Assembly (NCBI GenBank): GCA_026981865.1
Contig: JALSIA010000203.1
Span: 1 to 44,573, forward strand
Direction of reading: 5' to 3'
DNA length: 44,573 nucleotides
From: Thermaceae bacterium
GTDB lineage: Bacteria > Deinococcota > Deinococci > Deinococcales > Marinithermaceae
Shown here: piece by piece, positions 26,427 through 29,039 of the stretch
How positions within the stretch are numbered: the stretch's first letter is position 1
How the letters are laid out: each line of letters opens with the position of its first letter
The notes under the pieces: model-generated
Seen by the model: only the letters and a program-made list of their open reading frames with translations
What the model was told of the DNA's origin: nothing
Databases searched by the model: none
Translations under genes and position numbers: made by a program

Positions 26427-27710
26427 TCAGGGACCCAGGCGGACCGTCACGGTGCGGGCGCTGGGCGGGACGTTCAGCAGCTTTTCCTGCGGCAGGTAGC
26501 CCTCGGCGCGGATCTGGATGCGGTAGACCCCGGGCGCGTCGAAGTAGACCTTGCCCGGGATGATCGCCAGCACCCGGCCGCGAACCAGCTGCGAGGCCTC
26601 GGGTGCGTCGAGCAGCACCAGCTCGGCCCGGCCGTCGGGCGGCTCGACGCGGAATTCGACCGCGTAGCCTTCGGTCGCGCCCGAAGCCGGAGCGCGGCCC
26701 TTCCACCAGACGACCGCCACCGCCAGCAGCACGACGAGAACGAGCGCGCCTGCACGCCAGAGCCAACGTCGGTCACCCGCGGCCTCAGCGCCCCGCGGCT
26801 CGATGACCTCGAACGCGGGCTCGCTGACCTCGTCAATGCGCACGACGCGGCTGGGGTCCGTGGGCCGGGGCTCCACGCGGACCCCTGCATCCCCCTCCTC
26901 GACCGCGCCGCCGGTCGCGGACGGCGCAGGAGCGCGCTCGGGCTCGGGCGGGAAGAGCGGCGCCTCCTGGGGGGCGGGCTCCGGCGTGGGGGGCTCGGAC
27001 GGCGGGGCCGGCGCGGAGGGTTCGGGCGGTTCGGCCCCTTCCACGGGCGCGGGCGGCGTCTCAGGGCGGCCAAGGACACGCACCGTGCCCGTCTCCGGGG
27101 GTTCGAGCGGGGCCTCGGACTCCTCCTCGGCGTCTTCGGCGAGGGCTTCGAGCTCGGACAGCGACCGCGGGTCGGCCAGGTACTCGGCGGCCTCGCGCAG
27201 GTCCACGGCCCCCTCGGCCAGCCGCTCCATGACGCGGTGGAAGGGCCAACCCGGCCAGGTGTCGCCCGCGGCCTCGCGCAGCGCCTCGACCAGGGCCGCC
27301 TCGTCGGCGGCGCGCACCGGCACCGGCAGGCCCACGCCCTCGATCCAGACCTCGTCGCCCTTGACCCAAAGCCGTTCGGTGTCGAGGCGGCCGTGCTCGA
27401 GCCCCTGGGCCTTCATCTCCAGCAGTGACCCAAGCAGGCGGCGGGTCCAGGCGGTGAGTTCGTAGGGGCTAACCTCGCCCTGCAACTGCGCCAGCGGCAC
27501 CGCGCCGAAGGGCAGCTCGGCGATCCAGGCGTCGTCCTCACGCCCCTGCCAGTTGAGGGTGCCTTGGATGCGGAAGCTCGGGGCCGCCCCTTCGAGCGGC
27601 CGGTAAACGAGCACTGGGGTGCCCGTCACCGTGTCCTGCCCCTCCCAAATTTCAATCGCGCCTTCGCGGGCGCGGATGCGGTTCAGCAAATACGGACCAA
27701 TGTGGTTCAC
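26427..27710 (-). CDS. Membrane pseudokinase with PEGA-like extracytoplasmic domain
   Basis: The 427-residue protein begins like a bacterial Ser/Thr kinase of the PknB group ('IGPYLLNRIRAREGAIEIWEGQDTVTGTPVLVYRPL'). It lacks the key residues: the VAxK Lys is Tyr36, the HxDLKPEN loop reads HGRLDTER (106-113), and DFG reads EGVG (124-127). A Pro/Glu-rich linker (about 195-310) leads to one membrane helix (about 318-336) and a C-terminal beta domain ('GYAVEFRVEPPDGRAELVLLDAPE ... GVYRIQIRAEGYLPQEKLLNV') of PEGA type. It is probably a non-catalytic scaffold or sensor at the envelope. The GTG start has TATAAT (27717-27722) 6 nt upstream. Confidence 0.75.
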   Translation of the reverse strand: MNHIGPYLLNRIRAREGAIEIWEGQDTVTGTPVLVYRPLEGAAPSFRIQGTLNWQGREDDAWIAELPFGAVPLAQLQGEVSPYELTAWTRRLLGSLLEMKAQGLEHGRLDTERLWVKGDEVWIEGVGLPVPVRAADEAALVEALREAAGDTWPGWPFHRVMERLAEGAVDLREAAEYLADPRSLSELEALAEDAEEESEAPLEPPETGTVRVLGRPETPPAPVEGAEPPEPSAPAPPSEPPTPEPAPQEAPLFPPEPERAPAPSATGGAVEEGDAGVRVEPRPTDPSRVVRIDEVSEPAFEVIEPRGAEAAGDRRWLWRAGALVLVVLLAVAVVWWKGRAPASGATEGYAVEFRVEPPDGRAELVLLDAPEASQLVRGRVLAIIPGKVYFDAPGVYRIQIRAEGYLPQEKLLNVPPSARTVTVRLGP

Positions 27711-27716
27711 GTTTCG

Positions 27717-27722
27717 ATTATA
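27717..27722 (-). promoter_or_regulatory. -10 box of the pseudokinase gene
   Basis: TATAAT on the minus strand ends 6 nt before the GTG at 27710, predicting a leaderless transcript. No good -35 is visible. It is divergent from the strong promoter at 27766-27795. Confidence 0.6.
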
Positions 27723-27765
27723 CGGAGGGTGCGGTTAGGAACCTGTAAAGGTTTATTACATTTCG

Positions 27766-27795
27766 TTGACACTGCATTTTTCCACAGCCTATAAT
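27766..27795 (+). promoter_or_regulatory. Consensus sigma-70-type promoter
   Basis: TTGACA (27766-27771) and TATAAT (27790-27795) are perfect hexamers separated by 18 bp, the best promoter in the window. The expected start is near 27802-27803, at the ATG of the leader ORF. Confidence 0.9.
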
Positions 27796-27802
27796 CGAGT
27801 AG

Positions 27803-27889
27803 ATGAAACAGGCTTCGCCCCAAGATCTCCTCCGCCCGATCCCGATGGGCGGATTTTTGGTATGCGAAAGGAGCCGGGATGCAGTATAA
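27803..27889 (+). CDS. 28-residue leader ORF, possibly leaderless
   Basis: An ORF (MKQASPQDLLRPIPMGG...) begins 7 nt after TATAAT, exactly where transcription should start. It reads through a terminator-like hairpin (27831-27858) and through the Shine-Dalgarno of the next gene, and stops 11 nt inside it. This layout fits a regulatory leader peptide: ribosomes translating it would melt the hairpin. There is no run of one codon type that would name an amino acid signal; the Arg-Pro-Ile-Pro stretch falls at the hairpin. Not proven to be translated. Confidence 0.5.
   Translation: MKQASPQDLLRPIPMGGFLVCERSRDAV
27831..27858 (+). terminator. Attenuator-like terminator hairpin in the leader
   Basis: TCCGCCC (27831-27837) pairs with GGGCGGA (27847-27853) and is followed by five T (27854-27858). 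It lies between the consensus promoter and the first structural gene, 20 bp before that gene's ATG, and inside the leader ORF. Confidence 0.65.
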
Positions 27890-28247
27890 GGTCACGCTAT
27901 CCACCGAGGAAATCGTCCGTGGATTGAAGCACTACCGCCGCATCGCCAAGCAGGACGTGCTGCGCGCCCCCGAGACCCCGAACCCCGAAGTCTTCCGCAC
28001 GCATGCCGAAGCCCGCCGCGAAGTGTACACCCAGCTGGCCGAACTGGCCGAGAGCAAGGGCCCGGACGCGGTGGTCGAGTACGCGCTCGAGCTCTACCAG
28101 TCCTTGCCCTTCGTCACCGGCACCGCCGAGGACGCCTACCCCGAGATCAAGGGCAAGGAGAACGCCCTCGAGAACTTCTTCCTGATGATCGGCCTCGACC
28201 CCAAGGTCCGCCGCGAGGCCCGCAAGCAGCGCCGGCCGATGGAGTAG
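27879..28247 (+). CDS. Conserved-looking protein of unknown function
   Basis: The 122-residue protein is soluble, mostly helical and rich in charged residues (MQYKVTLSTEEIVRGLKHYRRIAKQDVLR...; ends 'DPKVRREARKQRRPME'). I recognise no domain. It has an AAAGGAG Shine-Dalgarno (27867-27873) 5 nt before the ATG and is driven by the strongest promoter in the window, through a leader ORF and a terminator-like hairpin. It is followed after 8 nt by the uracil-DNA glycosylase gene, so a link to DNA repair is possible, but that rests on position alone. Confidence 0.7.
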   Translation: MQYKVTLSTEEIVRGLKHYRRIAKQDVLRAPETPNPEVFRTHAEARREVYTQLAELAESKGPDAVVEYALELYQSLPFVTGTAEDAYPEIKGKENALENFFLMIGLDPKVRREARKQRRPME

Positions 28248-28255
28248 CGCCCGCG

Positions 28256-28873
28256 ATGAGTTTGGAAGAGCTTGCCGCTCAGGCCGCCCACTGCACCGCC
28301 TGCCGGCTGCACGAAGGGCGCACCCACGTGGTCTTCGGCGAGGGCGACCCTGACGCCAAGCTGATGATCGTGGGCGAGGGGCCCGGGGCCGACGAGGACG
28401 CCCAAGGCCGCCCCTTCGTGGGCCGCGCCGGCCAGCTGCTCGACCGCATCCTCGAGGCCGCGGGCATCCCCCGCGCGAGCGTCTACATCACCAACATCGT
28501 CAAGTGCCGCCCTCCCGGCAACCGCAACCCCCTGCCCGACGAGGCCAAGATCTGCAGCTCGCTGTGGCTGCTCAAGCAGATCGAGCTGATCCGGCCGCAG
28601 ATCCTGGTGCCGCTCGGCTCGGTGGCCACCCAGTTCTTCCTGGGCGAGAAGCTTCCCATCACCAAGGTGCGCGGGCGGTGGTTCGAGTGGAACGGCATCC
28701 AGGTCTTCCCGATGTTCCACCCCGCCTACCTGCTGCGCAACCCCTCGCGCGCCCCCGGCAGCCCCAAGGCCCTGACCTGGAAGGACATCCAGACGGTCAA
28801 ACAGGCGCTCGACCGGCTCGGCCCCAAGCCCGAACGCGAGATCAAGGCCTCCGCCCAGGACCCCCTCTTCTGA
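28256..28873 (+). CDS. udg: Type-4 uracil-DNA glycosylase (Fe-S)
   Basis: The 205-residue protein is a family-4 UDG (UDGa, known from Thermus thermophilus), which removes uracil from DNA at high temperature. Motif A is 'GEGPGADEDAQGRPFVGRAG' (the usual GEAPG has Gly for Ala), followed by 'YITNIVKCRPPGNRNPLPDE', and motif B is 'FHPAYLLRNPS'. Four Cys at the expected spacing (CTAC, VKC, KIC) would hold a [4Fe-4S] cluster. It is the second gene of the leader-regulated operon. Confidence 0.93.
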   Translation: MSLEELAAQAAHCTACRLHEGRTHVVFGEGDPDAKLMIVGEGPGADEDAQGRPFVGRAGQLLDRILEAAGIPRASVYITNIVKCRPPGNRNPLPDEAKICSSLWLLKQIELIRPQILVPLGSVATQFFLGEKLPITKVRGRWFEWNGIQVFPMFHPAYLLRNPSRAPGSPKALTWKDIQTVKQALDRLGPKPEREIKASAQDPLF

Positions 28874-28874
28874 G

Positions 28875-29039
28875 ATGAGCGCACCGGCGCGCCTGGTTCT
28901 GCTCGCGGTCGCAGGAGCCCTGGTGGCCTGGGCCCTCTACGACAATTGGGGCAGCCGCGCCTACCACTGGCTGCCCAACACCCTCGCGGCCCTGGCCGTG
29001 GCCGCGGTGGCCGTCGTTTACTGGGGCCGCCGTCGTTAG
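28875..29039 (+). CDS. Small membrane protein, two TM helices
   Basis: An ORF of 54 residues (MSAPARLVLLAVAGALVAW ... [13 protein letters not shown]) starts one base after the UDG stop (TGA-G-ATG). It has hydrophobic helices at about 6-21 and 35-50 and a basic tail. It ends in a stop that overlaps the purH stop on the other strand. Spacing and hydrophobic pattern suggest a real third gene of the UDG operon. Function unknown. Confidence 0.65.
   Translation: MSAPARLVLLAVAGALVAWALYDNWGSRAYHWLPNTLAALAVAAVAVVYWGRRR

Follow-up and report, generated by a model that had tools for sequence, protein, structure and literature searches.

Ribosomes suppress intrinsic terminators located within open reading frames (ORFs) or directly behind them (PMC4824070, PMC5021804). 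In the pyrBI operon of Escherichia coli, the leader ORF pyrL crosses an intrinsic terminator and a ribosome following RNA polymerase prevents termination, with no codon run being needed (PMC4824070, PMC5021804). Ribosomes often fail to repress a terminator that lies less than 100 nt into a coding region, unless the polymerase pauses (PMC4824070). In the trpL leader of Sinorhizobium meliloti (rnTrpL/peTrpL), the RNA begins with the ATG of the leader ORF, and a terminator precedes the structural gene (PMC7298713). In Deinococcus-Thermus bacteria leaderless genes are very abundant, at about 40% (PMC3160421). Here we describe, in a stretch of 44,573 nt from a Thermaceae bacterium (the window), a locus with two of the general hallmarks of ribosome-mediated attenuators, namely a short ORF between promoter and gene and a predicted intrinsic terminator within the leader. 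It precedes a gene for a 122-amino-acid (122-aa) protein and a uracil-DNA glycosylase (UDG) gene, an operon for which we found no described attenuator in the literature searched. On balance, we lean towards reading the leader as a ribosome-controlled transcription attenuator with pyrBI-like logic, in which a leaderless leader ORF is read through its own terminator.

All features of the element lie on the forward strand. The promoter consists of a -35 box TTGACA (27766–27771), which is kept in relatives, and a -10 box TATAAT (27790–27795), for which relatives carry TATAAT or TATACT; the spacer is 18 nt. The first-pass annotation had called this the only perfect -35/-10 promoter of the window, and a scan for TTGACA-N14-20-TATAAT bears this out, with a single site (27766–27795) and none in 100 shuffles. 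The whole 2.2-Mb genome holds two TTGACA-N17-19-TATAAT sites, namely the leader promoter and one driving a tRNA (anticodon TTT) that we interpret as tRNA-Lys. From the spacing to the -10 box, transcription is predicted to start at AGA (27801–27803). Since the leader ATG sits 8 nt past the -10 box, the implied 5′ UTR would be only 0–2 nt. The ORF that begins there (27803–27889; MKQASPQDLLRPIPMGGFLVCERSRDAV) has 28 codons in the ATG frame, crosses the Shine-Dalgarno sequence AAAGGAG of the downstream gene (27867–27873), and ends with the stop TAA (27887–27889) 11 nt inside the 122-aa gene. The first-pass annotation had placed the elements correctly, with the +1 position deduced from the -10 box. 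An open frame of 28 codons is by itself common at the G+C content of the window (P about 0.6 in shuffles). On the reverse strand, a divergent 427-aa gene starts with GTG at 27710. It appears leaderless too, because a TATAAT lies only ~6 nt before its start codon (27710–27724 for the two together), so that both transcripts from the intergenic region would start at or adjoining a start codon.

The hairpin UCCGCCCG-AUCCCGA-UGGGCGGA (27831–27853) has 8 pairs, the innermost being G-U, and a 7-nt loop. It occupies leader codons 10–17 and is followed by the U-tract TTTTT (27854–27858), so that a terminator-like hairpin with five T does lie inside the leader ORF (27831–27858), as had been annotated. 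Terminator-like sites number 5 in 8 kb against 3.5 expected, which makes the hairpin alone unremarkable; 0.7% of random 60-mers contain one. The 100-nt leader as a whole is not unusually stable (z 0.57), whereas the hairpin alone is. Folding energies of -10 to -14 kcal/mol are predicted for it at 37 °C and of about -8 to -8.5 kcal/mol at 60 °C, and termination may therefore be partial. Between 27803 and 27831 the window contains no U-rich run, and we identified no polymerase pause site. No Rfam covariance model reached its gathering score anywhere in the window, and a search of 27700–27950 at E ≤ 5 was likewise empty; a search of the genome found no further copies of the leader.

Other pairings were also seen in predicted folds. 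A long-range pairing, GGCUUCGC with GCGA-AAGG-AGCC (27811–27818 with 27864–27875), surrounds the terminator hairpin and borders the Shine-Dalgarno sequence; a partial version is present in genome G004, and it is missing in G003. We considered strong sequestration of the Shine-Dalgarno sequence and rejected it: its flanks are partly paired with 27811–27818 in the predicted fold, its core is mostly open, and the pairing is not conserved. A predicted competing, antiterminator-like pairing was visible once in G018, in two alternatives in G015, and not in the window. In the G018 leader (L067), codons 2–6 could form an antiterminator by pairing with the terminator's 3′ arm. The G015 leader (L072) has a 48-codon GTG frame that ends 10–12 nt inside the gene, and it contains GCGAG, CTCGC and then CTCGC with TTTT, so that one arm has two alternative partners, as in the layout of a classical attenuator.

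To place the element in its phylum, we compared the 101 genomes (of 111) that contain the 122-aa gene, using upstream regions from nearly all homologues; genus names for numbered genomes, such as Oceanithermus-like for those in family f1, are deduced from named loci, and no Deinococcaceae were recognised in the set. A strong promoter with the 18-nt spacer also occurs in f1, Meiothermus, f5 and parts of f2 and f3, with a spacer of 19 nt in four g2 genomes of f1. The combination of promoter, ATG or GTG, and hairpin with U-tract was found in 13 leaders from four families: five Oceanithermus-like f1 genomes (G000–G004), two further f1 genomes (G007 and G013), four f5 genomes, one f2 genome (G018) and one f3 genome (G015). 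In these leaders the start codon lies 7–9 nt past the -10 box. The hairpin ends 54–61 nt past the -10 box in the eleven with a standard hairpin; the hairpins of G018 and G015 differ, and their U-tracts are present but were missed by strict criteria. A good promoter was present in 40 leaders. Of these, 12 combine a strict terminator with a 5′ RTG, 26 lack the two features altogether, and two, which bear looser hairpins, have RTG only; in no case does a terminator stand without RTG (Fisher p 1.6e-8, with relatedness ignored). One of the 12, the GTG of G061, was discounted as probably due to chance; its sister G062 has no GTG. Within the hairpin, the pairs CCGC/GCGG are invariant in ten distinct leaders and at least three consecutive T follow in 10/10 aligned hairpins. 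The outer pair of the core CCGCC/GGCGG appears as A-U, U-A, G-C or G-U with one exception, a covariation for which the hairpin boundaries were picked by the analyst, which favours structure. The check that the first-pass annotation had proposed in related genomes thus supports it, in that both the leader frame and the terminator within it have been retained in several genera that are only distantly related.

The frame also tends to end at the downstream start. Of 11 distinct loci, 8 have their stop between -4 and +14 relative to the gene start, where dinucleotide shuffles with a random frame predict 1.7; with each genus represented by a single locus, the count is 6 of 8 (1.0 expected, p about 2e-5). 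Leader length varies from 75 to 137 nt among the loci, so the frame has been kept through changes in length. The overlap with the gene start is ATGA in three f5 genomes and in f2, the frame of the fourth f5 genome stops one nt before the ATG, and the Oceanithermus-like leaders stop 11 nt within the gene. Three loci deviate: the frame stops just past the U-tract in G003, after six codons and before the hairpin in G013, and continues in frame into the gene in G007. The suggested layout for re-initiation therefore stands for most loci and does not extend to these three, and re-initiation at the stop would not be universal. In the window, as in every distinct locus but G013 (10 of 11), the ORF crosses the terminator. 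The leader peptides compared share no run of regulatory codons, so that no specific amino-acid signal was found; with no such run in any leader, we set aside a trp/his-type amino-acid attenuator. A functional leader peptide is likewise not supported: although both of the two differences among G000–G002 are synonymous, codons 6–15 diverge freely in G004, differing from G000 at 9 of 10 positions, 8 of them altering the residue.

The element is by no means universal. In Thermus, Meiothermus and most of f3, the 122-aa gene is kept while leader frame and hairpin are missing, and the element is therefore not required for the gene. Such retention of the genes with loss of frame and hairpin had been named by the first-pass annotation as the pattern that would speak against an attenuator; it holds for these lineages and not for the 13 leaders. 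Several Meiothermus leaders of 49–59 nt (L014, L027, L040 and others) have a weak small hairpin and no leader ORF; that of L027 is CCCC-UAA-GGGG-UUUU, and these hairpins are perhaps a remnant or a different element. As a genomic background we used a 400-kb sample of the sister genome G001, in which 33 promoter-like sites reach a score of 9 or more out of 12. Only one of them combines a start codon at 7–9 nt with a terminator, and it is this leader; dropping the -35 requirement still returned this leader alone. Joint recurrence in relatives and absence elsewhere in the 400 kb place the element above chance.

The 122-aa gene (27879–28247) encodes a protein with no assigned function and no Pfam or NCBIfam family, which shares 72–97% identity with its homologues in 17 aligned relatives. 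Its AlphaFold2 model is all-helical (pLDDT 93.1). No fold match at E ≤ 0.001 was obtained against the PDB or viral structures, a PDB sequence search returned only designed helical repeats and other weak, chance-level matches, and plasmid and phage collections yielded no homologue. The second gene of the operon (28256–28873) encodes a family-4 UDG that is found in f1, in Thermus and Meiothermus, and in one f5 genome. After it, a 54-aa ORF (28875–29039) for a possible membrane protein occurs only in the closest relatives, G000–G002. The leader had been annotated as an element of a UDG operon, a view that does not hold: two f5 genomes keep the leader with no UDG within 3 kb. The element is thus associated with the 122-aa gene rather than with UDG.

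The recurrence of promoter, 5′ frame and in-frame terminator in distant relatives suggests that the element is probably a real switch worked by the ribosome. The very strong promoter would yield an RNA whose AUG or GUG forms the 5′ end or lies no more than about 4 nt from it. A ribosome could load there at once and translate across the terminator, which spans about +28 to +57 and is contained in the ORF. If it trailed RNA polymerase closely, it would melt or block the hairpin, and transcription would go on; in most lineages this ribosome would end at the downstream start codon and feed translation of the gene. With slow or absent leader translation, the hairpin would form and a short RNA of about 55 nt would be released. 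Output of the 122-aa protein, and of UDG where it follows, would in this way be set by how well leaderless initiation and early elongation match the speed of transcription. As no leader holds a codon run, our preferred guess for the signal is the status of general translation or of leaderless initiation. A bolder form of the proposal, that this is an attenuator type native to leaderless-rich bacteria which reports leaderless initiation or translation speed and not an amino acid, we regard as possible but doubtful; its signal would be whether a ribosome has loaded on the bare 5′ AUG before the polymerase reaches a terminator 30–55 nt away. Timing poses a serious objection to the attenuator reading, given that the terminator lies about 30–55 nt from the 5′ end and no pause element was identified. 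Also counting against it are the ORF of G013, which ends before the hairpin, that of G003, which ends just after it, the lack of peptide conservation, the low stability predicted for the hairpin at 60 °C, and the absence of the element from Thermus and Meiothermus.

The main rival is a fixed, partial terminator that damps a promoter of tRNA strength, the leader ORF being incidental or merely a means of handing over ribosomes. That the genome has only one further perfect promoter, which stands before a tRNA, fits this view, as do a leader peptide that is not conserved and has no codon run and the tendency of terminators this near the 5′ end to escape ribosomes (PMC4824070). A fixed terminator, however, needs no 5′ start codon, yet every leader with a terminator has one, and 26 of the 28 leaders without a strict terminator also lack it, which makes this alternative rather unlikely in our judgement. 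Because the 5′ start codon always accompanies the in-leader terminator, ribosome control of readthrough, with delivery of the ribosome to the gene start, remains the simplest explanation. The same start codon and frame would go unexplained if the attenuator were worked by a factor or ligand acting in trans, for instance the 122-aa product binding leader RNA, with the ORF secondary. That the leader travels with the 122-aa gene even where UDG is lacking, and that the product is small, helical and extremely conserved, would suit such a factor; outside the hairpin, though, no leader RNA sequence is conserved across genera and no Rfam family matches, and we consider this improbable.

Promoter strength and the promoter-to-terminator layout would also suit a gene for a short, separately terminated RNA of about 55 nt that might in addition be a tiny leaderless mRNA, operon readthrough being a by-product. 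The S. meliloti rnTrpL, an attenuator product that is also a trans-acting RNA, offers a precedent (PMC7298713). Here, however, sequence conservation between genera is confined to the hairpin and the frame continues past the terminator to the gene start, so that we rate this as quite improbable, below a trans-acting factor. Chance, in the form of a GC-rich hairpin and a random open frame behind a strong promoter, seems to us the most remote of these alternatives: each feature alone is common, but their joint recurrence in four families with the frame kept, and their uniqueness in 400 kb of G001, argue against it.

If the attenuator reading is true, attenuation would here rest on leaderless initiation, by which perhaps 40% of the phylum's genes start translation, and the leader would be a natural reporter of the ability, or inability, of a ribosome on a 5′-terminal AUG to catch up with RNA polymerase inside the first 50 nt. 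The element also offers a way into the function of a small protein that is found in almost every genome of Thermus and Deinococcus relatives searched, yet is absent from Pfam and NCBIfam.

Compared with described systems, the locus shares with pyrBI a leader ORF that crosses an intrinsic terminator and the independence from a codon run. It differs from pyrBI, where the ribosome uses an internal initiation site, in its leaderless start; its terminator sits much nearer the 5′ end, the U-rich pause tract before the hairpin and any sign of UTP sensing are missing, and the frame ends at or inside the next gene. Its operon, which contains no pyrimidine gene in the window, concerns DNA repair and a protein of unassigned function rather than pyrimidine synthesis. 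Like trpL of S. meliloti, the RNA is predicted to begin with the start codon of a leader ORF, with a terminator before the structural gene (PMC7298713). In trpL, however, consecutive Trp codons together with competing hairpins serve to sense tryptophan, and the ORF stops short of the terminator; the present frame lacks a Trp run and reads across its terminator. The junction with the gene resembles ATGA translational coupling, by the four-nucleotide overlap itself in three f5 genomes and one f2 genome and by an 11-nt overlap in the Oceanithermus-like genomes; in contrast to ordinary ATGA-overlapping genes, the upstream frame here is a leader of 27–48 codons that also holds the terminator.
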